Below the pieces are notes generated by a model, which saw nothing but the letters and a program-made list of their open reading frames with translations, ran no database searches and was not told the DNA's origin. This document shows positions 4,969-21,751 of a DNA stretch of 64,000 nt, piece by piece (positions within the stretch are counted from its first letter, which is position 1; each line of letters opens with the position of its first letter). Location: IMG/VR virus record IMGVR_UViG_3300042509_001805, positions 1 to 64,000 of that record. The stretch is one strand, 5' to 3'. This DNA is from a virus. The translations under genes were made by a program, and so were the position numbers.

Positions 4969-4996
4969 TTGACATTTCCTGTCGATATGGTATAAT
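4969..4996 (+). promoter_or_regulatory. Early promoter P1
   Basis: TTGACA at 4969-4974 and TATAAT at 4991-4996, 16-bp spacer containing GTCGATA. It is the first of the near-identical cassette promoters and drives the 54-aa gene at 5038. Confidence 0.9.
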
Positions 4997-5037
4997 AGAG
5001 ACATCGAAAGCAAGTTAATCACACAAAGGAAACGAAC

Positions 5038-5202
5038 ATGAAACACAACGTTAAAATCATCGAAGAAAAGACAACCAAGGCAATCAACGGCGTTTGGTTC
5101 AAAGTTTACGTTAACGGGATTAGCGTAGGCTATCGCTCGACACGCGAACAAGCCGAGAAACTTTCTCAAGAAATTTTGGCAAAAAAGACTTATCGCTCTT
5201 GA
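5038..5202 (+). CDS. Early microprotein, KVYVNG family member 1
   Basis: 54 aa, start chosen by AAAGGAAACGAAC before ATG. It belongs to a paralogous group in this window whose core reads F/Y-KVYVNG..V....TREQAE followed by a basic helix; the closest copy is at 8832. A two- or three-strand sheet plus helix is likely. The TGA stop (5200-5202) lies within the -35 hexamer of the next promoter. Function unknown; small early phage proteins commonly bind host machinery. Confidence 0.8.
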   Translation: MKHNVKIIEEKTTKAINGVWFKVYVNGISVGYRSTREQAEKLSQEILAKKTYRS

Positions 5203-5226
5203 CAATGGATGCCGATATAGTATAAT
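5199..5226 (+). promoter_or_regulatory. Early promoter P2
   Basis: TTGACA 5199-5204, TATAAT 5221-5226, 16-bp spacer with GCCGATA. The -35 box includes the stop codon of the upstream gene. Confidence 0.9.
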
Positions 5227-5264
5227 AGAAGCATACAAAAGACAATCACACAAAGGAAAAAAGA

Positions 5265-5453
5265 ATGAACGAAACAGAATTCAGCTTGACAATCAACGGA
5301 ACCACTTTTGTAGCTACTTGGTTCGACAAAGAAGACGACCGCGTAGCCGAGTGGTACATCGACGCTAACGGTGAACGTGTTGGCAAGTTTCGCGGTTATC
5401 CAAGTAACGCAAAGCAAGTAGAAAATTTCATCCGGCATTTTCTTGCCAAGTAA
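5265..5453 (+). CDS. Early microprotein, IDANGE family member 1
   Basis: 62 aa, AAAGGA upstream. Paralogue of the 68-aa protein at 8335: both share AT(W/F)...D..R..E(W/L)(Y/W)ID.NGE..G..R and a C-terminal helix with Q(V/I)E..(I/V). Predicted beta-rich with a C-terminal helix. Function unknown. Confidence 0.8.
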   Translation: MNETEFSLTINGTTFVATWFDKEDDRVAEWYIDANGERVGKFRGYPSNAKQVENFIRHFLAK

Positions 5454-5537
5454 ACGATGAATACCGACGAAACGGTTGGTAGTGTACAGCTGTAAAATAG
5501 TGTACACGCGTATACTAGTCGGGCCGACCCAAATCGT

Positions 5538-5566
5538 CGTAAGTCCTAGAGCCACAAGGACTTATG
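5538..5566 (+). repeat. Cassette hairpin 1 with upstream TGTACA palindromes
   Basis: Arms TAAGTCCT/AGGACTTA around loop AGAGCCACA. Upstream lie two palindromic sites (5481-5494 and 5499-5515, TGTACA type) and a GGGCCGACCC block. Downstream is an A/T-rich tract, then promoter P3. This order recurs through 21.7 kb. Confidence 0.85.
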
Positions 5567-5614
5567 GCAACAGGAAAAATTCTGAAAAAAATTTCTTTTT
5601 TTGTTCTAAAGCTA

Positions 5615-5642
5615 TTGACAGTGTTTTGCCGATATGTATAAT
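5615..5642 (+). promoter_or_regulatory. Early promoter P3
   Basis: TTGACA 5615-5620, TATAAT 5637-5642, 16-bp spacer with GCCGATA. Drives the gene at 5685. Confidence 0.9.
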
Positions 5643-5684
5643 AAGGACATGAGAAACAACAACACACAACAAAAGGAAACGAAA

Positions 5685-5819
5685 ATGAACACTGTCAAGA
5701 TTGTCAAGGTTAACACTTGCTGGGGAGCTTACTGGTACACCGTAAAGGTTAACGGAATTGCCGTTGCGAATTGCGGTACATTGTCACACGCTCAAGAAAT
5801 TTCTAAAAAATATTCCTAA
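5685..5819 (+). CDS. Early microprotein, VKVNG family member 2
   Basis: 44 aa from the ATG with AAAGGAAACGAAA upstream. It matches the 5038 family: YTVKVNGIAVA followed by a short helix with SHAQEIS. Nearest relative is the 58-aa protein at 6302 (both have CGTL and A(Q/R)). Function unknown. Confidence 0.75.
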   Translation: MNTVKIVKVNTCWGAYWYTVKVNGIAVANCGTLSHAQEISKKYS

Positions 5820-5824
5820 AGCTA

Positions 5825-5852
5825 TTGACAACCGATTGCCGATAAGTATAAT
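5825..5852 (+). promoter_or_regulatory. Early promoter P4
   Basis: TTGACA 5825-5830, TATAAT 5847-5852, 16-bp spacer with GCCGATA, six bases after the upstream stop. Confidence 0.9.
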
Positions 5853-5886
5853 AACAACATACGAAACACAACACAAGGAAACGACA

Positions 5887-6051
5887 ATGGACAGCTTTGA
5901 CAACATTCAGTGCGACGAAATGCCATTCGAACCCAAGCAATCGGACTGGCTGGAGTTTCAAATGTGGCTTGACAGCTTGCCGATTCGCGACGATGAAATC
6001 GGGGTTGAATACGGGCCTATCGAGTTTCCTGCCGATGACCTTCCCTTCTAA
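5887..6051 (+). CDS. Early acidic microprotein, MDSF family member 1
   Basis: 54 aa, strongly acidic, AAGGAAACGACA before ATG. It resembles the 63-aa protein at 11556: MDSF start, (P/Q)(K/T)..DW.E(F/Y)Q.W core and an acidic end. The 40 bases after the stop (AGGGCTTGACCC... with CGCCCAAGTCGCG) are also shared with that copy, so gene and trailer were duplicated together. Function unknown; DNA-mimic-like acidity is only a guess. Confidence 0.75.
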   Translation: MDSFDNIQCDEMPFEPKQSDWLEFQMWLDSLPIRDDEIGVEYGPIEFPADDLPF

Positions 6052-6093
6052 GGGCTTGACCCACAAGCCTCGCCCAAGTCGCGAGCATAGTTC

Positions 6094-6120
6094 GCCTCTC
6101 TATTCCAAAAGAGGCTTTTT
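6094..6120 (+). terminator. Rho-independent terminator
   Basis: GCCTCT/AGAGGC six-bp stem with a ten-base loop and five Ts, following the duplicated trailer sequence of the 5887 gene. Confidence 0.75.
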
Positions 6121-6126
6121 ATACAC

Positions 6127-6195
6127 TAGTGTACAAGCGTACACCTGCCGGGCCGACCCAAATCGCCGTAAGTCCTAGAGCGCCAAGGGTTTACG
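6127..6195 (+). repeat. Cassette palindrome and hairpin 2
   Basis: TAGTGTACAAGCGTACAC palindrome (6127-6144), GC-rich GGGCCGACCC, then hairpin 6167-6195 with loop CTAGAGCGCCAAG in forward orientation. Confidence 0.8.
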
Positions 6196-6244
6196 TCAAT
6201 TCAAAAAATTCCTAGAAAAATTTCTTTTTTTCTGCTCAAGTCTA

Positions 6245-6272
6245 TTGACATTTCTAGCCGATACTGTATAAT
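6245..6272 (+). promoter_or_regulatory. Early promoter P5
   Basis: TTGACA 6245-6250, TATAAT 6267-6272, 16-bp spacer with GCCGATA. Drives the gene at 6302. Confidence 0.9.
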
Positions 6273-6301
6273 AGAAGCATAACACAACAAGGAAAATAAA
6301 A

Positions 6302-6478
6302 ATGACTATCTCAATTATCCCCCACGAAGCAACTAGCGGCTACGGCTTTCATTACACTGTAGAAATCGCCGGTTCGGTTGTTGCAATCTGCGGAACTCTG
6401 CATCATGCTCGCAAAGTTGCTGACGAAAAAAGAAAAGAATATCTCAAAAATTTGATTGATGGTATTGACAGTTTGTAA
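6302..6478 (+). CDS. Early microprotein, VNG-like family member 3
   Basis: 58 aa, AAGGA upstream. FHYTVEIAGSVVAICGTLHHARK aligns by eye with the 5685 protein, with a longer basic helix at the end. The next promoter (P6) begins inside its last codons. Function unknown. Confidence 0.75.
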   Translation: MTISIIPHEATSGYGFHYTVEIAGSVVAICGTLHHARKVADEKRKEYLKNLIDGIDSL

Positions 6479-6492
6479 CCGATAAGTATAAT
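6465..6492 (+). promoter_or_regulatory. Early promoter P6
   Basis: TTGACA 6465-6470, TATAAT 6487-6492, 16-bp spacer with ACCGATA; the -35 lies within the upstream coding sequence. Confidence 0.85.
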
Positions 6493-6517
6493 AAGAACAC
6501 ACACAAAGGAAAAAAAC

Positions 6518-6718
6518 ATGAAAACAGAACTACTCAAAAAAGCCGCTATTGCTCACCTTCCGCACGTTACTGATTACAAGTTGATTAACGAATTGCAACA
6601 ACGAATTGTGGCTGATATTGTAGGTCATGAAAATGGTCGCGGTTGTTTGAGCAGTGAATACATTTCCAAACTGAACGCATTAAATGATGCAATCAACGCG
6701 GTTAAGGTTCACTGGTAA
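6518..6718 (+). CDS. Small helical protein
   Basis: 66 aa, AAAGGA before ATG. Mostly helical and mildly amphipathic. Not recognised and without a visible paralogue here. Confidence 0.7.
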   Translation: MKTELLKKAAIAHLPHVTDYKLINELQQRIVADIVGHENGRGCLSSEYISKLNALNDAINAVKVHW

Positions 6719-6733
6719 TAATTTTACAATAAT

Positions 6734-6741
6734 TATAAATA
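6734..6741 (+). promoter_or_regulatory. TATAAATA octamer, possible late promoter
   Basis: Exact T4-type late -10 octamer 32 bases before the ATG at 6773. The only reason to take it seriously is the gp55-like sigma gene at 3291; chance occurrence in AT-rich DNA is possible. Confidence 0.3.
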
Positions 6742-6772
6742 CAACACACACACACACACAAGGAAACGAAAA

Positions 6773-6907
6773 ATGAAAATTTACATTGCAATCGAAGCGG
6801 ATAAGGGTCTTGGGCAAACCATGATTCGAGCTTTTTATAACAAAGAAGAAGCTGAAAAATTCGCAAAAGAAAATCGTTATTGGATTGAAGAAGTTGAATT
6901 GTCGTAA
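6773..6907 (+). CDS. Small early protein
   Basis: 44 aa, AAGGAAACGAAAA before ATG, preceded by an (AC)n run. Sequence IYIAIEAD...IRAFYNKEEAEKFAKEN suggests a strand-helix fold like small phage proteins that take a number-like role, but the family is not recognised. It starts a four-gene run with 6921 and 7113. Confidence 0.7.
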   Translation: MKIYIAIEADKGLGQTMIRAFYNKEEAEKFAKENRYWIEEVELS

Positions 6908-6920
6908 CGAAAGGAAAATT

Positions 6921-7100
6921 ATGTTCGACCGTTTTGCCGTTGCCGTTTTTTTAATGGATTATCATAGTGGCCAGTGGAGCCGAGGCTATCGCATTCTATC
7001 CAAAATGCGGCCCGAAAATTTCTCCTCTGATTTCTGTGAAGAAATGCGGAACACCGAATATTACGCTCACCTAGTTGCAAATTATGAAAACGAAGTATAA
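6921..7100 (+). CDS. Small early protein
   Basis: 59 aa from the ATG preceded by AAGGAAAATT; an earlier in-frame start would overlap the upstream gene and lacks an RBS. Not recognised. Confidence 0.7.
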   Translation: MFDRFAVAVFLMDYHSGQWSRGYRILSKMRPENFSSDFCEEMRNTEYYAHLVANYENEV

Positions 7101-7112
7101 GGAAAAATTATA

Positions 7113-7439
7113 ATGTTTACACGCGCCCAATATCTTGCCGGTGAATGTTCGCACCAAGAATATTACGGTCAATTTGTTAATCAGTGGATTCTTACTTGCG
7201 TAAAGGGAAAATATGGAGTTAATCGATTAATTGAAGCTGAAAAGCTTGATATTAATTTTAACACTATCCCATTGTATTCATGGGACCAACTGAATATAAT
7301 GTCGGCAGTTGACCAAGAACTTTGGGCTGCTGCTAATGGTTCACGATATTACAGCCTATCTGATAATCTTTGCATCCAAAAACAAGCTGCTCGAATGATT
7401 GTAGAAAAATATCATAGTGAACAAAACGCCACTGTCTGA
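7113..7439 (+). CDS. Conserved-looking phage protein, unknown
   Basis: 108 aa, AAGGA 10 bases upstream. Alpha-helical, with FNTIPLYSWDQL and the aromatic-rich YYGQFVN. It resembles small phage proteins that carry an EYY..FV pattern, but no named family can be assigned. Last gene before a cassette boundary. Confidence 0.7.
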   Translation: MFTRAQYLAGECSHQEYYGQFVNQWILTCVKGKYGVNRLIEAEKLDINFNTIPLYSWDQLNIMSAVDQELWAAANGSRYYSLSDNLCIQKQAARMIVEKYHSEQNATV

Positions 7440-7471
7440 CCCTATGTAAACAGACTGCGCAAAACAACCGC

Positions 7472-7500
7472 CCTAAGTGCTAGAGCCACAAGGACTTAGG
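7472..7500 (+). repeat. Cassette hairpin 3
   Basis: CCTAAGTGCTAGAGCCACAA with GGACTTAGG; forward loop. Seventeen bases from hairpin 4, so this cassette carries a tandem pair. The rest of the 7440-7879 gap holds two copies of CCAATGAGCAG (near 7590 and 7612) and no strong gene. Confidence 0.8.
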
Positions 7501-7517
7501 TCAACGCGGGCCGCCGC

Positions 7518-7553
7518 CGTAAGTCGCAAGTCCTAGAGCCGCAAGGGTTTACG
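7518..7553 (+). repeat. Cassette hairpin 4, with 7-base insertion
   Basis: CGTAAGTCGCAAGTCCTAGA then GCCGCAAGGGTTTACG: the 5' arm is lengthened by a partial duplication (CGCAAGT). Confidence 0.75.
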
Positions 7554-7760
7554 TCAATTCTCTAGAGCAATCGTCATGCCAATCGGCAAGTGAACAAAGA
7601 TTGTACATGCCAATGAGCAGAATCTATGCAGCCAATGAGCAGTTTCTGTACACCCAGCAACGCTGCTTAAATTTTAGGCACGAAAACCGCGTGTTTTGAG
7701 CAGGAAAAAAATTCTGTGCTTAATTTTTGACTTGGCACGGGATTCGCTCTATATAGTGGT

Positions 7761-7829
7761 ATGGAAAGTAAAAATCAAAAACAGAAACTTGCTGGGGAAA
7801 GAAAAGTTTCTGCTAAAGATTTAGCTTGA
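7761..7829 (+). CDS. Possible 22-aa peptide
   Basis: ATG ten bases after a TATATA/TATAGT -10-like box (with TTGACT at 7729-7734), no RBS, so it would be leaderless. It ends with TGA inside the -35 of P7, an arrangement shared with confirmed-looking genes here. Basic peptide, no family. Confidence 0.3.
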   Translation: MESKNQKQKLAGERKVSAKDLA

Positions 7830-7853
7830 CAATGACGATAAATATGGTATAAT
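7826..7853 (+). promoter_or_regulatory. Early promoter P7
   Basis: TTGACA 7826-7831, TATAAT 7848-7853, 16-bp spacer with GACGATA. Drives the gene at 7880. Confidence 0.85.
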
Positions 7854-7879
7854 AGAGTAATAAGAATTAAGGAAAAAAA

Positions 7880-8080
7880 ATGAAAATTCTAAAAAGTAAA
7901 ATCACAAAATTTGGTGCAAAAGTTAACCTAGTCGATGGTGGCGAAGGTACAAAACAATTCTTTGCACTGTCAAAACGTTATTGGATTTCTTATGGTGAAT
8001 CTGCAAGTCCTCAAAATAATTGCAGAAATCGCTCAGATAATCTGAAATATATCGAAAAAAAGTTTCAAGAAATTATCTAA
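7880..8080 (+). CDS. Small early protein
   Basis: 66 aa, AAGGA upstream. Begins MKILKSKITKFGAKVNLVDGG, then a FALSKRYWISYG strand pair and a basic helical end, weakly similar in layout to the KVYVNG family (short sheet then helix). Not recognised. Confidence 0.7.
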   Translation: MKILKSKITKFGAKVNLVDGGEGTKQFFALSKRYWISYGESASPQNNCRNRSDNLKYIEKKFQEII

Positions 8081-8085
8081 AGCTC

Positions 8086-8114
8086 TTGACAACATCTTGT
8101 CGATACTGTATAAT
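8086..8114 (+). promoter_or_regulatory. Early promoter P8
   Basis: TTGACA 8086-8091, TATAAT 8109-8114, spacer with GTCGATA. Confidence 0.85.
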
Positions 8115-8142
8115 AGAATCACACAACACAAAGGAAACGAAA

Positions 8143-8280
8143 ATGATTATCAACGGTTTTAAATTTTATGTTCGTCAACACGATACCGCCGACAAGTATT
8201 ATGTCGCGATGAAGGGCGATGTGGTTCTCACTTCAAAAAGTTTGGATTATCTTGTGAAAAAAGTCAAGAAACACGCTTGA
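8143..8280 (+). CDS. Early microprotein, VNG-like family member 4
   Basis: 45 aa, AAAGGAAACGAAA before ATG. FKFYVRQ...YYVAMKGDVVLTS then basic helix LVKKVKKHA; similar order to the 5038 group. The TGA stop is in the -35 of P9. Confidence 0.7.
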   Translation: MIINGFKFYVRQHDTADKYYVAMKGDVVLTSKSLDYLVKKVKKHA

Positions 8281-8304
8281 CAACGCCGATAATTACTGTA
8301 TAAT
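8277..8304 (+). promoter_or_regulatory. Early promoter P9
   Basis: TTGACA 8277-8282, TATAAT 8299-8304, 16-bp spacer with GCCGATA shifted five bases left. The -35 includes the previous stop codon. Confidence 0.85.
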
Positions 8305-8334
8305 AACAACACACAACACAACAAAGGAAAAAAT

Positions 8335-8541
8335 ATGATTGAAAAATTTGATTACAATAGTTATGAAATCGCGACGTTTGTATATGACGGCGACCGCGAA
8401 CGTTTGAAGGAATTGTGGATTGATGTCAACGGCGAATTTATTGGGGCGATTCGATTTCGCTCGATGAAACCATCGCAAGAACAAATCGAACAATACGTTG
8501 ACGAATATCTTTCAGAAATGGCATTGGGATACGAAATATGA
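8335..8541 (+). CDS. Early microprotein, IDVNGE family member 2
   Basis: 68 aa, AAAGGA upstream. Paralogue of 5265: IATFVYDGDRERLKELWIDV then NGEFIGAIRFR and a C-terminal helix. Ends in an ATGA overlap with the next gene. Function unknown. Confidence 0.8.
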   Translation: MIEKFDYNSYEIATFVYDGDRERLKELWIDVNGEFIGAIRFRSMKPSQEQIEQYVDEYLSEMALGYEI

Positions 8542-8666
8542 AAAACGAAATTGAAAGCCTGGAAAGTATGTCGTATGATGAACTACTTCAGGCGGCTATT
8601 GCTCTGCTTGAAAATGCGGTCGAATTACGGGCCGAATTGGATAAAATCAGGGGCATCATCAGATGA
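8538..8666 (+). CDS. Small helical protein
   Basis: 42 aa. ATG overlaps the previous stop (ATGA). Sequence is acidic-amphipathic helix (YDELLQAAIALLENAVELRA), coiled-coil-like. Probably translated by re-initiation. Not recognised. Confidence 0.6.
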   Translation: MKNEIESLESMSYDELLQAAIALLENAVELRAELDKIRGIIR

Positions 8667-8671
8667 ACAAC

Positions 8672-8740
8672 TAGTGTACAAGTGTACAGTGGCCGGGCGG
8701 GCCGCAATCGACGTAAGTCCTAGAGCCACAAGGGTTTACG
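8672..8740 (+). repeat. Cassette palindrome and hairpin 5
   Basis: TAGTGTACAAGTGTACAG (8672-8689), GGCCGGGCGGGCC block, hairpin 8712-8740 with forward loop CTAGAGCCACAAG. Confidence 0.85.
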
Positions 8741-8788
8741 TCAACAAAAAAATTTTCCAGAAAATTTCCAGAATTGGGCTCAAGACTC

Positions 8789-8816
8789 TTGACAAATCCA
8801 GCCGATAGTGTATAAT
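8789..8816 (+). promoter_or_regulatory. Early promoter P10
   Basis: TTGACA 8789-8794, TATAAT 8811-8816, 16-bp spacer with GCCGATA. Confidence 0.9.
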
Positions 8817-8831
8817 AGAGGCATAAGGAAA

Positions 8832-9002
8832 ATGAAAATGAAAAACGAAATGACAATCACCGAAACCAAAACCAACAAGTCCCTAACCGGTTCTTTTTTC
8901 AAAGTTTACATTAACGGCCAACTGGTGGCAACTCGCACAACCCGCGAAGCCGCTGAAGAAGCTGGAAAAAAAATTCTGGAAAAAAAGGTCTACCGCTCTT
9001 GA
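8832..9002 (+). CDS. Early microprotein, KVYVNG family member 5
   Basis: 56 aa from the ATG after AAGGAA. Closest paralogue of 5038: FFKVYINGQLVATRTTREAA then AEEAGKKIL and the shared ending K.YRS. As in 5038, the CGC TCT TGA end runs into the next -35 box, so gene, ending and following promoter were copied as a unit. Confidence 0.8.
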   Translation: MKMKNEMTITETKTNKSLTGSFFKVYINGQLVATRTTREAAEEAGKKILEKKVYRS

Positions 9003-9026
9003 CAATGGCTGTCGGTTTGGTATAAT
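8999..9026 (+). promoter_or_regulatory. Early promoter P11
   Basis: TTGACA 8999-9004, TATAAT 9021-9026, 16-bp spacer with GTCGGTT, a degenerate copy of the spacer motif. Confidence 0.85.
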
Positions 9027-9069
9027 CAGAGCATAAGTTAATCACACAAACACAAAAGGAAAAAACACA

Positions 9070-9420
9070 ATGAACACTCAACAAGCTATCCGCGAATTTC
9101 AAGCCGCTATCGAATCCGTTATCGAAATCCCAAACAGTTGGTTGCCAACTGAATTGCATGATGACGTTCGTGGTGGTCGCACAATCGAACGTCTCAACGA
9201 ACTACTCGACGAACGCGATGGTATCACCGAACATCGCAAGCTCAAAGCTCTCAAAGCTCGCAACATCGAAAAGTATGCCGCTACAGTTGCAGCCGGTCAA
9301 GAAATTGATTACAATATTGGCGAACGCGACGAATTGCAACTCTATCGTAATGAATGTGCAATGATTGAAGGAATGATTCACGCTGGTCATATCGACCGCG
9401 ACGATTTGGAAGTAGAATAA
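9070..9420 (+). CDS. Helical early protein
   Basis: 116 aa, AAAGGA upstream. Almost wholly helical and charged, with coiled-coil character around residues 40-70. Not recognised. Stop and next start share a base (TAATG). Confidence 0.75.
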   Translation: MNTQQAIREFQAAIESVIEIPNSWLPTELHDDVRGGRTIERLNELLDERDGITEHRKLKALKARNIEKYAATVAAGQEIDYNIGERDELQLYRNECAMIEGMIHAGHIDRDDLEVE

Positions 9421-9617
9421 TGAACAGTAAAAAAATTGCAAAACGGCTTGAAGCAATGGGCTATAAGTTAACCCGCCGATTGAATTATTGGATTGTAAGT
9501 TGTGAGGAATTACCTTGGGATTGGGTATTTACTAACTTAAAAGAAGTTGAGCGTTGGACTCATATCGAAGAAACTGTTGGCGATAGATTTTGCTATCCCG
9601 AACCAGACGAGTGCTAA
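9420..9617 (+). CDS. Small early protein, possible acceptor-fold
   Basis: 65 aa. IAKRLEAMGYKLTRRLNYWI followed by SCEELPWDWVFTNLKEVERW looks like a small strand-helix protein. Translationally coupled on both sides (TAATG junctions). Not recognised. Confidence 0.75.
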   Translation: MNSKKIAKRLEAMGYKLTRRLNYWIVSCEELPWDWVFTNLKEVERWTHIEETVGDRFCYPEPDEC

Positions 9618-9724
9618 TGAAATTTTTTAAATCGTTTTTTATAATATTGTGGATGGTTGGGTTTTTGTATTGTAGTATAATGGCTGTTACTTTTCTAATT
9701 CTGGATTTTATAAAATGGTTTTGA
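9617..9724 (+). CDS. Single-pass membrane microprotein
   Basis: 35 aa, almost entirely hydrophobic after a KSFF start, starting in a TAATG overlap. One of several one-helix peptides found as last genes of cassettes here (see 10705, 12687, 14521, 27460). Role unknown; membrane localisation is inferred from composition. Confidence 0.6.
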   Translation: MKFFKSFFIILWMVGFLYCSIMAVTFLILDFIKWF

Positions 9725-9732: not shown

Positions 9733-9801
9733 TAGTGTACAACTGTACAGGTCGGCGGGCGGCCCGGCGAGCCGTAAGTCCTAGAGCCTCAAGGGTTTAC
9801 G
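9733..9801 (+). repeat. Cassette palindrome and hairpin 6
   Basis: TAGTGTACAACTGTACAG (9733-9750), a GGCGGGCGGCCC block, hairpin 9773-9801, forward loop. Followed by TCAAGTAGGCAAA, also seen after hairpin 7. Confidence 0.85.
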
Positions 9802-9868: not shown

Positions 9869-9896
9869 TTGACAACTAGTGCCGATACTGTATAAT
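9869..9896 (+). promoter_or_regulatory. Early promoter P12
   Basis: TTGACA 9869-9874, TATAAT 9891-9896, 16-bp spacer with GCCGATA. Drives the Gp88-like gene. Confidence 0.9.
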
Positions 9897-10776: not shown

Positions 10777-11045
10777 AAAGTTTGGTTATATTTTCTTACA
10801 AGCAGCCAGTGGATGGTTCGGTTATTCGTTGGGGAATTTTAGAACGCGAACGCGATACTAAAAAAGAACCTTTATCAATCAATTCTTTATGCGGACCTTA
10901 TAGAAAACGCGATGCTAACTTTGAAAGGTCGCAACATCTTGACACTATAAAAACTCGCAACGGAATAAAAACATTTTATCGCGAGCGACAAAATTGGAAA
11001 ATCAAAATTCCATTTGTTGGAAGTATAGTATCGCGATTCGTATAG
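10773..11045 (+). CDS. Basic protein of unknown function
   Basis: 90 aa from the ATG overlapping the previous stop; an earlier ATG at 10758 is possible. Strongly basic, with many Arg/Lys and a mixed fold. Not recognised. It ends at the palindrome of cassette 7. Confidence 0.6.
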   Translation: MKSLVIFSYKQPVDGSVIRWGILERERDTKKEPLSINSLCGPYRKRDANFERSQHLDTIKTRNGIKTFYRERQNWKIKIPFVGSIVSRFV

Positions 11046-11111
11046 TGTACACGCGTACAGGGCGCGGGCCGTCCCGCCGCGTCGTAAGTCCTAGAGCCAC
11101 AAGCACTTACG
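11043..11111 (+). repeat. Cassette palindrome and hairpin 7
   Basis: TAGTGTACACGCGTACAG (11043-11060), GC-rich block, hairpin 11083-11111 with forward loop CTAGAGCCACAAG. Confidence 0.85.
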
Positions 11112-11187: not shown

Positions 11188-11215
11188 TTGACAAACCTAG
11201 CCGATATTGTATAAT
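11188..11215 (+). promoter_or_regulatory. Early promoter P13
   Basis: TTGACA 11188-11193, TATAAT 11210-11215, 16-bp spacer with GCCGATA. Confidence 0.9.
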
Positions 11216-12057: not shown

Positions 12058-12085
12058 CCTAAGTCCTAGAGCCCCAAGGAGTTAC
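12058..12085 (+). repeat. Cassette hairpin 8
   Basis: CCTAAGTCCTAGAGCCCCAA with GGAGTTAC; forward loop, one arm mismatch. Confidence 0.75.
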
Positions 12086-12122
12086 AACGATTGAAAAAAA
12101 ACTTTTTTTCTGCTAAAGTTCC

Positions 12123-12177
12123 TTGACATTGTGTGCCGATATAGTATAATAGAGAAAGTGTGCCGATATAGTATAAT
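12123..12177 (+). promoter_or_regulatory. Early promoter P15 with duplicated -10 block
   Basis: TTGACA 12123-12128 and TATAAT 12145-12150 (16-bp spacer, GCCGATA), followed by a direct repeat of GTGTGCCGATATAGTATAAT so that a second TATAAT occurs at 12172-12177. The second -10 has no good -35. Confidence 0.85.
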
Positions 12178-12197: not shown

Positions 12198-12485
12198 ATG
12201 AAAGTTGAAGTAACGCCCGCAAAGCCTGATTTCCAGCCCGTCACCCTGAGTATCACCATTGAGTCGTTTGCCGAACTCGCTGTGCTTTTTGCTCGATTCA
12301 ATTGCCCAGTTGCGATTATTAAACAACATGGCTTTGGTGATGGCCCAATGAACACCAGACTCGCAAGAGCAGCAGATTTTAGCATCGAAGATATCGATGA
12401 AGGCGGCAGAATTTTCGACCATATTTCAGACATAGCTAGAGGTTATTATTACGCGATGTATAATGTGGGAAAAGGAGAACGATAA
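12198..12485 (+). CDS. Early protein, unknown
   Basis: 95 aa after GAGAAACGAA. Mixed alpha/beta with FSIEDIDEGGRIFDHISDIA. Not recognised. Overlaps next start (TAATG). Confidence 0.7.
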   Translation: MKVEVTPAKPDFQPVTLSITIESFAELAVLFARFNCPVAIIKQHGFGDGPMNTRLARAADFSIEDIDEGGRIFDHISDIARGYYYAMYNVGKGER

Positions 12486-13077: not shown

Positions 13078-13164
13078 TTGCTACGCTTGCAACGGCGACG
13101 GTCAGCAGACAATCGCTAAGGTGCGGAACAAACCAACAAAATCCGCACGACTCGATTGGGCGAG

Positions 13165-13172
13165 TATAAATA
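13165..13172 (+). promoter_or_regulatory. TATAAATA octamer in non-coding region
   Basis: Second exact T4-type late octamer, in the 13078-13345 gap. That gap also has the hairpin GCGGCGGCATTTGCCGC near 13189 and no convincing gene; it may encode a structured RNA. Confidence 0.3.
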
Positions 13173-13283
13173 GGATGATAGGCCCAATGCGGCGGCATTT
13201 GCCGCGAATCGGCATTAAAGTTTAGCCCTCCTGTCGTCAGACGGCAGCAAACTAAACGAGCTAGCGTGTCGCCCCAACAGTTC

Positions 13284-14618: not shown

Positions 14619-14647
14619 CGTAAGTCCTTGTGGCCCTAGCACTTACG
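14619..14647 (+). repeat. Cassette hairpin 9, loop inverted
   Basis: Arms CGTAAGTCC.../...CACTTACG as before, but the loop reads CTTGTGGCCCTAG, the reverse complement of the loop in copies 1-8. Preceded by CGGCGGGCCGACCCGCCG but no TGTACA site. Confidence 0.85.
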
Positions 14648-14683: not shown

Positions 14684-14711
14684 TTGACATTCTGTGTCGA
14701 TAATGTATAAT
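14684..14711 (+). promoter_or_regulatory. Early promoter P19
   Basis: TTGACA 14684-14689, TATAAT 14706-14711, 16-bp spacer with GTCGATA. Confidence 0.9.
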
Positions 14712-16894: not shown

Positions 16895-17313
16895 ACGCCA
16901 AAGTTTATATTTACTGGAATTTACATAAGCGTTGTTTCAGTGCAAAACGAAACGGCAAAGTTTTCGCCCACTTCCGAAATGCCAGCATTTTGAATCCTGA
17001 GTTTCGAGTGAGTGCTGCTGGATGCCGCCGTGTTCGTCGCGATGGTCGCAAAAATGTTCATGCCAACATTGTATGCGAATTGGAGAATTTTACAATTCAT
17101 TCAGACAGCAGAATCGCCCCTGTTAGTGACGCTACTGCTGAGTATGCTTACTATAATCCGTATCTTTACGAAACTTTTGTTGACAACGAAGGTGATGCAT
17201 TGTATAATGCACAAAGTGCCGAGTTAACCACTTATGAGCATATGCTCAATTACTATAAAAATTTGAAAGAAAGACAACCCATTATTTACATTACGAAAGA
17301 AGCAAATGACTAA
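16891..17313 (+). CDS. Basic protein, unknown, TTG start
   Basis: 140 aa, TTG start within the previous stop (TTGA). Cationic N-terminal half with RKNVHANIVCELENFTIHSD and an acidic middle. Not recognised. It contains a good internal promoter at 17180-17208. Confidence 0.65.
   Translation: MNAKVYIYWNLHKRCFSAKRNGKVFAHFRNASILNPEFRVSAAGCRRVRRDGRKNVHANIVCELENFTIHSDSRIAPVSDATAEYAYYNPYLYETFVDNEGDALYNAQSAELTTYEHMLNYYKNLKERQPIIYITKEAND
17180..17208 (+). promoter_or_regulatory. Internal promoter
   Basis: TTGACA 17180-17185, TATAAT 17203-17208, 17-bp spacer, inside the 16891 coding sequence. It could add transcription of 17306-17978. Confidence 0.5.
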
Positions 17314-17500
17314 CGACATTGCAAAAAGATTAGAAAACGACATTGCAAAAAGATTAGAAAAACTCCAAGATGACTTGAACCATCTGGCCGAGAAACTCTC
17401 TGGAGAAGGTCCATCTAGCTATACCGAACGAAAAGAGCGAGCAAAAGAACGACAAGCTTTTGTTAGTGAAATAGAAAGAATGCAAAATGAAAGTGAATAA
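17306..17500 (+). CDS. Coiled-coil protein with fresh internal duplication
   Basis: 64 aa. An exact 24-bp tandem duplication makes NDIAKRLE NDIAKRLE at the N-terminus. The rest is charged helix. Not recognised. The identical copies suggest a recent slippage event. Confidence 0.6.
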   Translation: MTNDIAKRLENDIAKRLEKLQDDLNHLAEKLSGEGPSSYTERKERAKERQAFVSEIERMQNESE

Positions 17501-17696
17501 GCACAACCGCGACCTAATTATTGCCGAATATATCGACCGTACCATCGATGGAATGGATATTAAAGGACTTATTGAATATGTTCGTGGCGGAATAGAAGCC
17601 GACCTTAAACATTATTCCGATACAGAATTGGAATATGAAATTCTTGACCAATACGATGATTTTCCTTGGTACGATTTTGATTATGCAGATGAATAA
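17487..17696 (+). CDS. Acidic protein, unknown
   Basis: 69 aa, ATG overlapping the previous gene by 14 bases. Acidic, helical, with YDDFPWYDFDYADE at the end. Not recognised. Confidence 0.65.
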   Translation: MKVNKHNRDLIIAEYIDRTIDGMDIKGLIEYVRGGIEADLKHYSDTELEYEILDQYDDFPWYDFDYADE

Positions 17697-17768
17697 AGTA
17701 TAAGGTTTTGGCGGCCCTGTTGGTAGTTTTGTTATTGAATATAAGGAACCTTCATTAGAGAATAAATA

Positions 17769-17978
17769 ATGACCGAAAACCCACTACAACTAGCAACTAA
17801 AAATTGGATAGAAGCAGTCCAGAAGTATTATGAGAATACTCGTAGTAATGAATTGACCCAAATTCATATGAGGGGTTATTTCAGCGGTTGGAGCGAACGC
17901 GAGATTCTGGAATTTGCGAATAAATTGGCTAAAAATGAACAGGACTATCCTTTGTATAGAGAGAACGAGAATAAATAG
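17769..17978 (+). CDS. Small helical protein
   Basis: 69 aa; AAGGAA is about 25 bases upstream and no closer RBS is seen. Helical. Not recognised. It is the last gene before cassette hairpin 10. Confidence 0.55.
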   Translation: MTENPLQLATKNWIEAVQKYYENTRSNELTQIHMRGYFSGWSEREILEFANKLAKNEQDYPLYRENENK

Positions 17979-17993
17979 GCCCGCCCGCCGAGC

Positions 17994-18022
17994 CCTAAGT
18001 CCTTGTGCCGCTAGGACTTACG
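17994..18022 (+). repeat. Cassette hairpin 10, loop inverted
   Basis: CCTAAGTCCTTGTGCCGCTA with GGACTTACG. Two copies of TTCCCGCTCGGGA follow (near 18050 and 18090), a palindromic pair not seen elsewhere. Confidence 0.8.
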
Positions 18023-18137
18023 TCAATCAAGCAAAGCAACTTTTGTGCCATTCCCGCTCGGGAAAATTCTAGGCAAACCGCAAAAGTTATTCCCGCTCGG
18101 GACAGAAAACTTTTTTCTTTTTTTTCTCTCAAGCCAC

Positions 18138-18165
18138 TTGACCTTCGCGGTCGATAAAGTATAAT
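18138..18165 (+). promoter_or_regulatory. Early promoter P22
   Basis: TTGACC 18138-18143, TATAAT 18160-18165, 16-bp spacer with GTCGATA. Drives the amidoligase gene. Confidence 0.85.
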
Positions 18166-18202
18166 GAGAGAGTAAGTCACACACAATGTTTAGGAGTTAG
18201 TT

Positions 18203-19054
18203 ATGCCTCGCCGTGTTGTTAGTTGTCAGTTGCCGCCCGTCAAAACGTGCAAGAATACCAATTGTGCTAGTGTTGCTATTAGCTACGATGGTTTCTGCAA
18301 GTCGCACGCTCCAAGTCGTCGCATTAAGAGCTATAATTCGCGTCCGCGATGTAGTTCACGATGGGCGAATCCTATCGGTATCGAACTCGAAATGATTCAT
18401 CCAGAATCCGCAAGCCGTTTGGCACAAGTTGCCCGCTTTGCATGTACCGATGCCAGTTTACCCTATGGTGGTGCGGAAATCAAGCTGGTGCAAGATGCCA
18501 GTAAGATTACCAATATCGCCGCCGATACTGCTCAACGTGCTGGCCTTGCTGGTGCAAAGGTTAATCGTAGCTGCGGTTTTCATGTTCATATGGGATTGCC
18601 CAATGGTGTCAGCGTTGGATTAGAGCGTCGAAGCGATGCGAACTGGTCAAGCTGTAACGCCCGTTATCGTTTGTGGGCATTGGCAACAAACTTTCAAGAA
18701 TACTTTTTTGATATTGTTCCCAAAACTCGCCGCACGAACCACTATTGCTCGCCGTTGACAAGCGTAACCAATAGTTTACATTCTCACTATGCTTGGCTAT
18801 CTGTTTCGCACCGTGTTCCTACGGTCGAACTACGGATTCATAGCGGAACGGTCAATCCGTGGAAAGTCAAAGGTTGGGTCGAAGTCGCTGTGCGTTTGCG
18901 TGAAATGGTAAACGCCGCGATTCTCGGAACCCAAGGTTGGGATAATCTTCCTAGCAAGAAGTTTGTAGATTATATGGAACCGGGAACACTTGGTTCCAAG
19001 TATTTGCTCGCTCGCGAATGTGCTGGTGGCAAACTGGTAAATTTTGGATTCTAA
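18203..19054 (+). CDS. Amidoligase-type COOH-NH2 ligase
   Basis: 283 aa. Residues 12-34 hold a zinc-knuckle-like CKNTNCASVA..CKSH. The catalytic domain shows the amidoligase (glutamine-synthetase-like fold) pattern: GIELEMI (58-64), DASLPYGGAEIKL, CGFHVHMGLP (124-133), RTNHYC, and VELRIHSGTVNPWKVKGWV. The family uses ATP to join a carboxylate to an amine, making peptide-like tags. It is followed by a class II glutamine amidotransferase, a pairing known from comparative genomics of this family. Substrate unknown. Confidence 0.85.
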   Translation: MPRRVVSCQLPPVKTCKNTNCASVAISYDGFCKSHAPSRRIKSYNSRPRCSSRWANPIGIELEMIHPESASRLAQVARFACTDASLPYGGAEIKLVQDASKITNIAADTAQRAGLAGAKVNRSCGFHVHMGLPNGVSVGLERRSDANWSSCNARYRLWALATNFQEYFFDIVPKTRRTNHYCSPLTSVTNSLHSHYAWLSVSHRVPTVELRIHSGTVNPWKVKGWVEVAVRLREMVNAAILGTQGWDNLPSKKFVDYMEPGTLGSKYLLARECAGGKLVNFGF

Positions 19055-19105
19055 TTATCGTTCGATAGAACGTACACACACTCACTTTTTTTGGAGAATT
19101 TTATT

Positions 19106-19972
19106 ATGTGTCGATTGGCTTATATTCCGGGCAACTGCAAAGTAAACCGTACTGATTTGGTGGACCTTTTGCATATGCTGCAAAAGTCGTTTGGTGGCGA
19201 TGGTAACGGATTCGTTGCCGTTGGTCCCAATGGTGAGGAGTTTAGCGAGAAGGGTGTCAAGTTAGACAACGATGCTATCGTTATCAAAACTTGGAAACTT
19301 ATCAAAAAGGGTTGGTCGGTTTACTATCATACTCGCAAGATTAGCGTAGGCTGGAGTAGCGACAAGCAATGCCATCCGCACCGTATCAACGGTGACAAGT
19401 TCAAGGGTTGGCTGTGCCACAATGGAACGTGGAATGATGGAGTACCGCTTGCCAATTATCTTAACTGTGGTAGCGATACCGCTGCTCTTGCTCGATGTAT
19501 CGGCAAGTTTGGTATCGAGGGAGCAGAAAAACGCAATCTGTTTCCCAAGTCGGGCGTGTTTCTTATCTACGGTAGCGAGAATGGCGAATCGCCTATTCAT
19601 CGCGTAGTCAAGAAATCGGGCGACTTGCAATACTGCCCCAAGACTGGTATTTGGGCCAGTGAGTTCGAAAAGGATTGGCCGTACTGGTCGCAGGTTTATA
19701 CCGCAACTGTTGGCAAGCACTTGCTTTGCAAACCAGCCCCACAATATATTTCGCCTGCTCGCGGTAATGGTGGCAAGTTTGTGAGTCGCAAGAATAGCCA
19801 TCCTGATATTATTGATTCAGGAATTCCAGCACCGTGGGACGATGATGACCGAACCGTTGTTGATTCGCGTCGCTCGTTGTCGCAACGATTGTGGCCGCAA
19901 GACCCTACTGAGTACGAACCAGAGCCAGATTGGGAATATCGTGGCGGATACCCACGACGCGATTTGAGTTAG
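19106..19972 (+). CDS. Class II glutamine amidotransferase
   Basis: 288 aa from the ATG after TTTTTGGAGAA; starting here puts Cys at position 2, the Ntn nucleophile. Other class II features are GGDGNGFVAVG, HTRKISVG with a CHPH segment, and HNGTWND followed by SDTAALARC. It would release ammonia from glutamine (or hydrolyse a gamma-glutamyl bond). The last 90 residues are Pro/Arg/Asp-rich and seem disordered. With the upstream amidoligase it forms a likely two-enzyme modification pair. Confidence 0.85.
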   Translation: MCRLAYIPGNCKVNRTDLVDLLHMLQKSFGGDGNGFVAVGPNGEEFSEKGVKLDNDAIVIKTWKLIKKGWSVYYHTRKISVGWSSDKQCHPHRINGDKFKGWLCHNGTWNDGVPLANYLNCGSDTAALARCIGKFGIEGAEKRNLFPKSGVFLIYGSENGESPIHRVVKKSGDLQYCPKTGIWASEFEKDWPYWSQVYTATVGKHLLCKPAPQYISPARGNGGKFVSRKNSHPDIIDSGIPAPWDDDDRTVVDSRRSLSQRLWPQDPTEYEPEPDWEYRGGYPRRDLS

Positions 19973-20024
19973 TGTGTGTGTGTGTTTGTAGGTGAGTTTT
20001 ATCTTTTAACTTTAGGAGTATTTT

Positions 20025-20114
20025 ATGAAGAAGTGTACTGGTTGTGGCCGTCCAATTGAAACTGTTGTTATTCGTCAATGTCCAAAATGCATCAACAATC
20101 GCGCTGGATTATAA
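20025..20114 (+). CDS. Mini zinc-ribbon peptide
   Basis: 29 aa after TTTAGGAGTATTTT. CTGCG and CPKCI are two CxxC knuckles nine residues apart, a minimal zinc ribbon. A run of GT repeats flanks it on both sides (19974-19986 and 20115-20132). It may be a substrate, a subunit or a regulator of the amidoligase pair (inference). Confidence 0.6.
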   Translation: MKKCTGCGRPIETVVIRQCPKCINNRAGL

Positions 20115-20167
20115 GTGTGTGTGTGTGTGTGTGATGCCCAACAGCTTGGGGGACGCAAGTCCCCCGG

Positions 20168-20234
20168 CTGTACGGGTGTACACTACGCGGGCCGCCCCGC
20201 GACGCCCTAAGTCCTTGTGGCTCTAAGACTTACG
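20168..20234 (+). repeat. Cassette palindrome and hairpin 11, loop inverted
   Basis: CTGTACGGGTGTACACTA (20168-20185), GCGGGCCGCCCCGC block, hairpin 20206-20234 with loop CTTGTGGCTCTAAG in the inverted orientation. Confidence 0.85.
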
Positions 20235-20301
20235 TCAATCCGCTAGGCAAACCTCATGCCAAACAAAAACAAAAATCTTTTTTCTTTTTTCCTCAAGATA
20301 C

Positions 20302-20329
20302 TTGACAAGCAATGCCGATATAGTATAAT
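20302..20329 (+). promoter_or_regulatory. Early promoter P23, driving an RNA gene
   Basis: TTGACA 20302-20307, TATAAT 20324-20329, 16-bp spacer with GCCGATA. Predicted start about 20336, exactly the first base of the structured RNA; no ORF follows. Confidence 0.85.
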
Positions 20330-20335
20330 AAGGAA

Positions 20336-20462
20336 GTGAGCAGTGGCCTGACAAGCAGGTACGACTCTCGACAGTTAAGGACCGGGAAGCTCCGGGCTGA
20401 ACCGTTTCGTAGCGGTTACTGTTGATTGCTGCTGTTGGCGGTGTTCGATTCCCGCCGCTCAC
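20336..20462 (+). ncRNA. tRNA-like structured RNA with own promoter
   Basis: 127 nt. Ends pair as GTGAGC/GCTCAC. A T-arm follows the tRNA rule (loop TTCGATT, G53-C61 closing pair) with one bulged U. In place of a normal anticodon arm is a 7-bp stem (20369-20375 with 20418-20424) enclosing two hairpins (CCGG/CCGG and AACCG/CGGTT). No isotype can be assigned. It could be an intron-bearing tRNA, a decoy or a separate RNA class. The DUF932 promoter begins 19 bases after it. Confidence 0.65.
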
Positions 20463-20480
20463 ATTTTTTAAAAATTCCGC

Positions 20481-20508
20481 TTGACATTCGTTGAGCGTAA
20501 CGTATAAT
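20481..20508 (+). promoter_or_regulatory. Promoter P24
   Basis: TTGACA 20481-20486, TATAAT 20503-20508, 16-bp spacer lacking GNCGATA. Drives the DUF932 gene. Confidence 0.85.
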
Positions 20509-20552
20509 TCAAGAGTAACAAGTTCAGTTTTTTTTCACGAAGGGTTTTTACC

Positions 20553-21473
20553 ATGTCTACTGTTTCCCGTTCTAATGTTTCTGCCAACGAAATCTCGGCT
20601 CGCGTTGCCGCTGCTTTCAACTTCACTGTTGACAAGTTCCCGCTTGCTGGCCCAGATGGTCTTCGCACTCCGTGGTACGGTATGTTCCGCTCTGACAACA
20701 ACGAAGTTGTTGGTAACGGTTCTGTAACCTCGCGGTACTGTCCACACCAAACCGAAGACGTTCTCGCACTGGTGGATGCCGCCAGCGAAGCGTTTGAAGG
20801 TGTGGCGAGTGTTGACACCTACTTCCGCGATGGGCATTATGTCGCCATCGAACCAACTCGCGAACAACGTTATGCGATTTTCGGCACTGCCGACAACATC
20901 TTTCCGCGTGTCGTGATTCGTGCGGGTTACGATGGCAAGGCGTTCAACGCCGCGATGGGTTATTACCGCGATGCTTGCCGCAATCTGGCAATCATGCGAC
21001 AAGTTAGCGGAACCACCGTTTCCATCCGCCACACTAGCGGACTGCGAAGCCGCATGGATTCGCTGATTCAAAGCTTTACGAGTCTTCGCGATTCGTGGCA
21101 AATGCTGGCCGCAACTGCGGTTCAGCTTGAATCAACTCGCGTGAATCTTGCGGACTTCCTTCGCGAAGTTTACGGCGAACCCGAAACCGACAGCGGTCGT
21201 GCTGCGACTATCCATCGCAATCGTACCGAAACGATTTTCAATCGTGTGATGGATGAACGTAGCCGCACTGGTCGCGGTGCTATGCCAGCCGATTTCCGCG
21301 TCAGCGGTTGGGAAGCGTTCAACGCTGTGCAGGGATTCGTTCAGCATGAATCAACTCGCAAGAGTTCGGCTCGCGGTGCTGCCGCAACCGGATTTGGTCG
21401 AATCATCGCCGCCGCTAACGATGCTGCGGTTCAACGTGCCGAACGTGCTGCGATGAATCTGCTCGCGGTTTAA
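20553..21473 (+). CDS. DUF932-family protein
   Basis: 306 aa after CGAAGGGTTTTTACC. DUF932 signs: TPWYGMFRSDNNEVVG (residues 39-54), then SRYCPHQTEDVLALVDAA, and a helical C-terminal half. The family is widespread in phages and plasmids, often highly expressed, with no settled function. Its GC content looks higher than that of neighbours, fitting strong codon selection or transfer. Followed by a strong terminator, so it is a monocistronic unit. Confidence 0.85.
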   Translation: MSTVSRSNVSANEISARVAAAFNFTVDKFPLAGPDGLRTPWYGMFRSDNNEVVGNGSVTSRYCPHQTEDVLALVDAASEAFEGVASVDTYFRDGHYVAIEPTREQRYAIFGTADNIFPRVVIRAGYDGKAFNAAMGYYRDACRNLAIMRQVSGTTVSIRHTSGLRSRMDSLIQSFTSLRDSWQMLAATAVQLESTRVNLADFLREVYGEPETDSGRAATIHRNRTETIFNRVMDERSRTGRGAMPADFRVSGWEAFNAVQGFVQHESTRKSSARGAAATGFGRIIAAANDAAVQRAERAAMNLLAV

Positions 21474-21500
21474 TCTTTCGTGTGTTTCCTTTCGTGTGAG

Positions 21501-21534
21501 CCAGTGGCGGCATTTTGCCGCCGCTGGTTTTTTT
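21501..21534 (+). terminator. Strong rho-independent terminator
   Basis: CCAGTGGCGGCA pairs with TGCCGCCGCTGG (12 bp, one wobble), short T loop, then seven Ts. Confidence 0.9.
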
Positions 21535-21547
21535 AGATAGGTGTACA

Positions 21548-21607
21548 ATGGTATACATACTAATCGTCATTGTGGCGTGTATTATATTTTTGATGCTGGA
21601 ATTATAA
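21548..21607 (+). CDS. Possible 19-aa membrane peptide
   Basis: ATG GTA... gives a single hydrophobic helix (MVYILIVIVACIIFLMLEL). It starts inside a TGTACA-type palindrome with only a weak AGG upstream, and lies between two terminators. Similar to other one-helix peptides in the region; tentative. Confidence 0.3.
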   Translation: MVYILIVIVACIIFLMLEL

Positions 21608-21622
21608 TTCCGGTTATACTCT

Positions 21623-21645
21623 GGCCGCCTAGCGCGGCCTTTTTT
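21623..21645 (+). terminator. Rho-independent terminator
   Basis: GGCCGC CTAGC GCGGCC then a six-T run. Confidence 0.85.
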
Positions 21646-21666
21646 ATTATACTTTCGGTGAGTTGA

Positions 21667-21739
21667 CGTAAGTCCTTGGGGCTCTAGGAGTTACGACGCG
21701 CGGGGCCGGGCGGCTTACTGTACATCTGTACACCTGTAC
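21667..21739 (-). repeat. Cassette element 12, whole unit inverted
   Basis: Hairpin 21667-21695 comes first, then the GC-rich block, then a double TGTACA site (21718-21739). This is the reverse of the order in all other cassettes, so the full element lies on the opposite strand. Confidence 0.85.
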
Positions 21740-21751
21740 GAATTTTCACTA

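Follow-up and report, generated by a model that had tools for sequence, protein, structure and literature searches.

What kind of element is repeated between the small genes of an uncultured phage, and does it act as RNA or as DNA? The stretch of DNA analysed here, called the window throughout, comprises positions 1 to 64,000 of the IMG/VR virus record IMGVR_UViG_3300042509_001805 (77.5 kb), which belongs to an uncultured phage. A preliminary description had pointed to at least twelve copies of one composite element over 16 kb, built of a palindrome, a GC-rich block, a hairpin and a promoter. From the sequence, the element is probably a DNA docking platform for a dimeric protein, which would act on early sigma-70-type promoters and also form a module boundary.

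The core of the element is a 29-bp near-palindrome, CGTAAGTCC..loop..GGACTTACG, of which a repeat search found 12 copies in the window (Table 1). A symmetric weight matrix, trained on 228 sites from other loci with the window, the related contig G002 and locus L022 excluded, recovers exactly the same 12 sites in 64 kb at a score of at least 12. In 40 dinucleotide shuffles the mean was 0.025 sites and the maximum 1, so that the 29-bp site is strongly enriched over shuffled sequence and the number of copies first described is confirmed. The TAAGTCC/GGACTTA arms do recur as a dyad, but they are perfect in only 2 of the 12 sites. Likewise, the loop was rightly described as conserved in that its central bases are common to the window copies, but these bases occur in both orientations. 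The order of palindrome, GC block, dyad and promoter is found in part of the copies; exceptions are the copies at 12058, 14619 and 17994 (no palindrome in register), the double element at 7472/7525, the inverted element at 21667 and the many promoters without an element, including the first one at 4969.

Two IMG/VR contigs are related to the window. G001 (148,313 bp) is identical to the window across the 18,146 bases compared, and G002 (21 kb) has about 81% identity to the window's first 4.9 kb and carries a rearranged array with 7 sites. Further relatives were fetched with two protein baits, a 265-amino-acid protein (best 80 of 156 loci) and a DUF932 protein (9 loci), records of the window's phage being included, and several of these relatives show the same promoter array with a degenerate form of the 29-bp unit. 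In addition, a pattern of two sites 53 bp apart (20 fixed bases) matched at least 120 stretches in IMG/VR; all 120 of the stretches listed contain matrix sites, 918 in total. Among 50,697 deposited phages, a 19-kb DNA query in near mode gave 0 matches, T4-type core genes not being searched for, and tblastn with the DUF932 protein and one homologue of the 265-amino-acid protein gave no match. The DNA polymerase, of the DNA polymerase III type, matched 1323 records of this collection, all below 60% identity.

Scanning 87 sequences with the matrix (1.06 Mb, overlapping loci included; L001-L021 and L101, which are the window's phage, fragments and genome pieces, omitted) gave 311 sites, 258 of them distinct, and 1 site in a block-shuffled control. 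The composite recurs before early-type promoters in related phages. Its commonest form there is a pair of 29-bp sites 52-53 bp apart. Because the pair-pattern scan chose for the 53-bp spacing, the figures we rely on come from distinct loci fetched regardless of spacing: among their site-to-site distances below 200 bp, 53 bp occurs 55 times, 52 bp 29 times and 50 bp three times, there are none at 51 or 54 bp, and 30 others are scattered over 63-185 bp. (The pair-selected set has 364 distances at 53 bp, 6 at 52 bp, 3 at 50 bp and one each at 48, 54 and 55 bp.) A distance of 52-53 bp is five helical turns. The spacer between the two sites is 23 or 24 bp long in 437 out of 444 pairs, and its GC content is 70% on average, rising in the very middle of the 24-bp form to about 98%, compared with 36% in the outside flanks. 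Its sequence is weakly conserved, as random pairs of 24-bp spacers are 47% identical and agreement in a smaller, anchor-found set is 49% versus the 36% expected from composition. Therefore length and composition are far better kept than sequence.

The geometry is equally strict inside the single site. The gap between the half-sites is 11 bp in 147 out of 151 distinct cases, a recount on distinct sequences; before repeat removal it was 200 out of 205, a count which, like that of the 311 sites, includes overlapping loci. Hairpins require neither a fixed loop length nor a fixed spacing between sites, and the two together therefore point to a pair of protein dimers. This bears on the hairpin of the preliminary description, which in its strongest form would make the element similar to the promoter early stem-loops (PeSLs) of T4-type phages (PMC4503421, PMC3950731, PMC5931544), with the dyads and the GC block folding as RNA hairpins that end or insulate the upstream transcript. 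The elements do lie between genes, and 5 of the 12 window copies fold with a z of about -1.7 or lower relative to shuffles; the other 7 are no better than z -1.5. Two terminator-like matches on the - strand (7470-7486 and 17977-17995) overlap elements and one on the + strand (21623-21639) ends 27 bp ahead of the inverted copy, but a consensus scan found no + strand terminator-like signal within the 12 copies, and the array region as a whole has 25 terminator-like matches compared with 18.7 (standard deviation 4.2) in shuffles. The arms do not covary, and perfect 7-bp arms are present in only 5 of 238 sites. In 128 sites that were found by the anchor bases alone and that have a second site 50, 52 or 53 bp away across a spacer with 55% GC or more, arm positions 6-9 match even less than shuffled arms (1.83 versus 2.31, standard deviation 0.08; 0 of 1000 as low). 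The 24-bp spacer core has only slightly raised self-complementarity (5.65 versus 5.45, standard deviation 0.08; 3 of 500 shuffles as high). At gathering scores, Rfam annotates only tRNAs, a tmRNA and a Pistol ribozyme in the window and nothing at the elements. With no arm covariation and pairing below that of shuffled arms, we reject the hairpin reading of the 29-bp site, and an RNA stem-loop function of the whole element appears improbable. Of the proposal that both repeats are binding sites of a regulator, the binding-site part agrees with the fixed geometry, the recurrence and the promoter phasing shown below, and the hairpin part falls away.

A strand-specific RNA function was considered separately. 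In the window, the arm variant GGGTTTA leaves G-U pairs intact on the + strand. In L028, L033 and L102, however, the variant appears as TAAACCC in the left arm, which places the wobble pairs on the opposite strand, and the idea was dropped.

Between positions 4901 and 22000, the + strand has 26 matches to TTGACA-N15-19-TATAAT with at most one mismatch and the - strand has 0, where shuffles average 0.36 and 0.44, respectively. For a wider count we used 604 distinct elements, after removing identical cores and those with less than 170 bp of flank, and 448 of them come from the pair-selected stretches L109-L228; promoters were called with at most two mismatches within 130 bp. A promoter pointing away from the element accompanies 357 of the 604, in 356 cases on one side only, and a promoter pointing toward it was found on 22 of 1208 sides. 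When the limits were changed slightly, 412 elements had a promoter on one side, 9 on both sides and 183 on neither, and 55 sides had one pointing toward the element versus 33 in shuffled flanks.

The gap between element and -35 box is not evenly distributed. Peaks among 358 gaps lie at 17-19 bp (33 gaps), 28-30 bp (91), 38-40 bp (59), 48-51 bp (29) and 59-63 bp (19), that is near 18, 28.5, 39, 49 and 60 bp, which is helical phasing for gaps up to about 70 bp. With one gap taken per linker cluster (198 clusters, not proven to be independent), gaps of 15-70 bp (n=151) give a Rayleigh R of 0.69 at a period of 10.5 bp and gaps of 15-130 bp (n=195) one of 0.56, with 0 of 2000 jittered sets as high in either case. 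An earlier set without pair-selected loci also peaks at 39-40, 49-50 and 60-61 bp.

In the window, the paired form is seen only once, in the double element of sites 3 and 4, and no promoter with at most one mismatch is found in the 130 bp following site 4. Instead, 7 window copies have a 16-bp GTGTACA-type palindrome in register with their 29-bp site, always at 44.5 bp from centre to centre; one of the seven belongs to the inverted copy at 21667-21733. As the preliminary description said, some copies lack it: there is none in register at 12058, 14619, 17994 and the double element. The same register is found at 2 of the 7 sites of G002. Alone, the palindrome motif is moderately enriched, with 11 places at 11 or more of 14 positions compared with a mean of 2.3 and a maximum of 7 in shuffles. 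At the G002 sites 12466, 13276 and 14301, a GC block and a GGACACCTTTGGTC stretch flank the 29-bp site on the side that faces the promoter, which is a mirror of the window layout.

These data suggest the following mechanism. Each 29-bp dyad would hold one dimeric DNA-binding protein just upstream of a strong promoter, and two dimers would sit five turns apart on the same helix face around the GC-rich core. In the lineage of the window, one dyad would mostly have been replaced by the 16-bp palindrome in its fixed register. Like class I activators and phi29 p4, the bound complex would meet RNA polymerase from a single face of the helix. It would most likely tune or shut off early transcription for groups of genes rather than being required for starts, because the promoters are already near consensus. 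What the sequence itself shows is the motif with its strict spacings, the one-sided and phased promoters, the lack of selection for pairing, the restriction to one array and the breaks in gene order; the bound protein, its contact with the polymerase, the early timing of the genes, the switch-like effect and the identity of the binder are inferred.

The protein could also come from the host. Early promoters fire before any phage protein exists, and Fis at rRNA promoters is a precedent for upstream boosting by a host protein. A host protein bound to the platform would then boost early promoters at entry, and the linker ahead of the -35 box (68% AT) resembles an UP element with upstream sites. 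We consider a host binder unlikely, as 84,980 species genomes show no sign of a host regulon in a scan made with the 53-bp pair form and with the host not identified. The pattern matched 56 stretches there: 6 with paired matrix sites, on 5 short contigs of metagenome-assembled genomes (3.6-9.2 kb), 1 with a single weak site and 49 without a matrix site. A host regulon was rejected on this one scan, and the short contigs with paired sites may well be phage DNA.

Inside the phage genomes examined the element is confined to the array. In G001, a single-site pattern with up to two mismatches matches the array only, plus one two-mismatch match at 12228, which equals the rate of the control pattern; for G003, G004 and G006 the search used the pair pattern, likewise allowing two mismatches at most, and matched the array only. 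As far as the IMG/VR and species-genome scans with the 53-bp pair form reach, the element thus appears to be a phage element.

If the binder is encoded by the phage itself, a candidate lies beside the array. The gene of the 265-amino-acid protein ends 2.3 kb short of the first element, and an AlphaFold2 model (pLDDT 83, pTM 0.56) starts with a three-helix, helix-turn-helix (HTH)-like domain followed by long helices. At cut-offs of 0.001 for Pfam and 0.01 for PHROG the protein has no match, and sequence searches of the PDB gave best E-values of 0.061 and 0.069. Out of 41 family members, 34 match PHROG 323 'transcriptional regulator, D5-like' at E <=0.1 (best 3.3e-7). Of the 22 large records fetched by the element pattern, 19 contain a homologue, as do 4 of 4 fetched by other baits, 23 of 26 overall. 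These records were chosen by size (>=88 kb) among the loci listed; G005 and G006 were on contigs fetched by the binder protein itself, and the DUF932 bait had fetched G003 and G004. The elements found in G007 and G027, and both listed loci of G023, lie near a contig end. In the 12 records with both positions, the distance from the binder gene to the nearest exact or listed pair is 2.4-7.3 kb, with 14 kb in G012. A gene for a sigma-70-region-2-like protein lies within 0.8 kb of the binder gene in 23 out of 23 records, often touching it or nearly so, and 766 bp away in G006. The sigma-like match at G003:C1:22506-23006 contains one in-frame TAG. Because any gene there would keep the same company, the two genes are good candidates only.

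The distributed switch of the preliminary description is plausible. One could go further and see the whole early region under a single distributed nucleoprotein switch, in which the HTH/coiled-coil protein, whose gene stands with that of the sigma-like factor at the array, occupies paired dyads five turns apart before about 10 early promoters, contacts the polymerase from a fixed face, possibly bridges elements and switches all modules jointly, the elements at the same time defining the exchangeable modules. This extended model is possible but doubtful.

Several points weigh against the docking platform. Consensus promoters should need no activator, and 247 of the 604 elements have no promoter within the limits used. 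Gaps of 55-130 bp alone are unphased (R 0.125; 859 of 2000 jittered sets as high), 269 of the 358 promoter rows stem from loci selected by the 53-bp pair (though without regard to promoter distance), the linker clusters may be dependent, and the window is not the best example, as only 3 of its 9 same-strand gaps (48, 49 and 48 bp) fall on a main peak. The link to the binder is one of neighbourhood plus a weak family match: any array-side gene would show the same neighbourhood, the PHROG 323 match of the window protein has an E-value of 0.015, and Foldseek gave no match at E <=0.001 in PDB and BFVD.

The elements also mark module borders, though much of this effect is shared with any promoter-bearing junction. 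Among 20 array loci, gene adjacency was not preserved in 40 of 48 comparisons where the junction held an element, in 20 of 43 where it held only a promoter and in 16 of 75 where it held neither; the junction means are 0.891 (n=23), 0.615 (n=26) and 0.231. Such an excess would also be expected of a recombination site or mobile unit that exists mainly for the exchange of gene modules. Units occur in both orientations, and at window sites 17994 and 20206 the central bases are reverse-complemented relative to the orthologous G002 sites 19143 and 21184, with flanks in the same orientation. However, element junctions exceed those with only a promoter by a modest margin (p = 0.03, from comparisons that are not independent), and helical phasing to a promoter is unexpected for a recombination site. 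The central bases common to the window copies differ between copies in the relatives listed, which leaves no shared crossover core, and neither a Phage_integrase (PF00589) nor a Resolvase (PF00239) domain was found in any of 5 records, whose completeness is uncertain. On these grounds sites of an integrase or resolvase were rejected, and a recombination unit in the wider sense is quite improbable.

Some further features of the array were noted. A tRNA-like RNA at 20336-20463, with the ends GTGAGC/GCTCAC and the T-arm-like GGCGGTGTTCGATTCCCGCC, lies directly behind an element promoter; ARAGORN and Rfam made no call for it (Rfam none at 20300-20500). In L085 a stretch ending in a tRNA-like CCA end follows an element promoter, and in L028 a tRNA-like, CCA-ended stretch follows a promoter with GC block and without 29-bp site. 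The Pistol ribozyme lies inside the array at 13150-13211 (47.7 bits versus a gathering score of 34.5), the phage tmRNA is at 39191-39479, eight tRNA genes are clustered at 37194-38037, and a further tRNA-Lys is at 21917. At 12123-12177 a -10 region and its surroundings are tandemly duplicated, giving two TATAAT boxes. A second repeat family, TGTCTnTGCTAAACTAnnnTGATTT, is found at the array end (21761, 22233, 22545 and 22673), with a less similar copy inside the array at about 11937, and a stretch resembling it precedes the G002 site at 16.7 kb. Domain searches showed Hint and intein splicing domains in one member each (L014-L016 and L012, G001), among the 25 commonest of 27 families listed.

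Table 1. Positions of the array features and of the genes discussed in the window; gaps are in bp between element and -35 box.
Feature	Position	Strand	Basis or remark
Candidate binder, 265 amino acids	2478..3275	-	N-terminal three-helix HTH-like domain, then long helices; first bait
Sigma-70-region-2-like protein	3291..3836	-	adjoins candidate binder
16-bp palindrome GTGTACACGCGTATAC	5500..5515	+	44.5 bp to site 1 centre
22-bp GC-rich spacer	5516..5537	+	
29-bp dyad site 1	5538..5566	+	repeat search, matrix
Promoter TTGACA-16-TATAAT	5615..5642	+	gap 48 from site 1
16-bp palindrome	6129..6144	+	44.5 bp to site 2
GC-rich spacer	6145..6166	+	
29-bp dyad site 2	6167..6195	+	repeat search, matrix
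Promoter	6245..6272	+	gap 49 from site 2
29-bp dyad site 3, first half of the only double element	7472..7500	+	repeat search, site spacing
24-bp spacer within double element	7501..7524	+	site spacing
29-bp dyad site 4	7525..7553	+	53 bp after site 3
16-bp palindrome	8674..8689	+	44.5 bp to site 5
GC-rich spacer	8690..8711	+	
29-bp dyad site 5	8712..8740	+	repeat search, matrix
Promoter	8789..8816	+	gap 48 from site 5
16-bp palindrome	9735..9750	+	44.5 bp to site 6
GC-rich spacer	9751..9772	+	
29-bp dyad site 6	9773..9801	+	repeat search, matrix
Promoter	9869..9896	+	gap 67 from site 6
16-bp palindrome	11045..11060	+	44.5 bp to site 7
GC-rich spacer	11061..11082	+	
29-bp dyad site 7	11083..11111	+	repeat search, matrix
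Promoter	11188..11215	+	gap 76 from site 7
29-bp dyad site 8	12058..12086	+	preceded by GC block, no in-register palindrome
Promoter	12123..12150	+	gap 36 from site 8
29-bp dyad site 9	14619..14647	+	loop flipped, no in-register palindrome
Promoter	14684..14711	+	gap 36 from site 9
29-bp dyad site 10	17994..18022	+	loop flipped, no in-register palindrome
Promoter TTGACC-16-TATAAT	18138..18165	+	gap 115 from site 10
16-bp palindrome	20168..20183	+	44.5 bp to site 11
GC-rich spacer	20184..20205	+	
29-bp dyad site 11, loop flipped	20206..20234	+	repeat search, matrix
Promoter	20302..20329	+	gap 67 from site 11, ahead of tRNA-like RNA
DUF932 protein	20553..21473		second bait
29-bp dyad site 12, inverted element	21667..21695	-	repeat search, matrix
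GC-rich spacer, inverted element	21696..21717	-	
16-bp palindrome, inverted element	21718..21733	-	44.5 bp to site 12
Promoter TTGACA-17-TATACT	21752..21780	+	gap 18 from palindrome of inverted element

A geometry this clear (11-bp half-site gap, 52/53-bp pair, 10.5-bp phasing) is common to many environmental phages, for which no close relative was found in the phage collection searched, and the sharing of the element points to one common control system for the early genes of an uncultured phage group. From sequence alone, the element would flag the early regions of these phages and the borders of their modules, and a candidate regulator pair can be named. Moreover, a 'hairpin' repeat before phage promoters can be a protein-binding dyad, which may matter for other PeSL-like repeats.

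A literature search found no description of this element, with most subscription papers outside its reach. The earlier statement that no element of exactly this composition was known should nevertheless be qualified: PeSLs and the ESAS of mycobacteriophages are comparable repeated inverted-repeat elements, linked to promoters or gene starts. Class I activator sites, Fis sites at rrn P1 and phi29 p4 sites lie upstream of -35 and work at integral helical turns, which the phasing for gaps up to about 70 bp resembles; here, however, the sites recur as an array in one phage region, and no family relation is shown. L5 stoperators are dispersed single asymmetric regulator sites scattered over the genome. 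They share with the present element the many dispersed copies of a regulator site, whereas the dyads here are confined to one array.

Arbiol in 2010 and Comeau in 2014 are said to have described the PeSLs of T4-type phages as an inverted repeat with an early promoter, connected with gene shuffling. The likeness lies in the many copies of an inverted repeat with an early-type promoter between small genes and in the gene-order breaks at the elements. In contrast to PeSLs, the inverted repeat here is not selected to pair, no + strand terminator signal lies within the 12 copies, and the dyad has a fixed length, is usually paired around a GC core and lies upstream at helically phased distances.

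Genomes of cluster K mycobacteriophages carry 11-19 copies each of SAS/ESAS, in which a short repeat, the 13-bp SAS, marks gene starts at the start codon; roughly half of the copies come with imperfect inverted repeats, for which the authors favour protein-binding sites (PMC3203893). Both elements are many-copy and probably protein-binding inverted repeats. The inverted repeats of ESAS are 17 bp long, lie at translation starts and have spacers of variable length (PMC3203893), whereas here the half-site gap and the site spacing are fixed and the link is to sigma-70-type promoters. In HGTV-1, a conserved TATA-box-like motif and an inverted repeat before most open reading frames of one genome side were likened to PeSLs (PMC3950731); this is an archaeal virus with no known relation to the window's phage. 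Judged by its sequence features, the element thus appears to be a variant of the repeated phage promoter elements, partly PeSL-like and partly ESAS-like, which departs from PeSLs in the stem-loop and terminator and from ESAS in the variable spacer.

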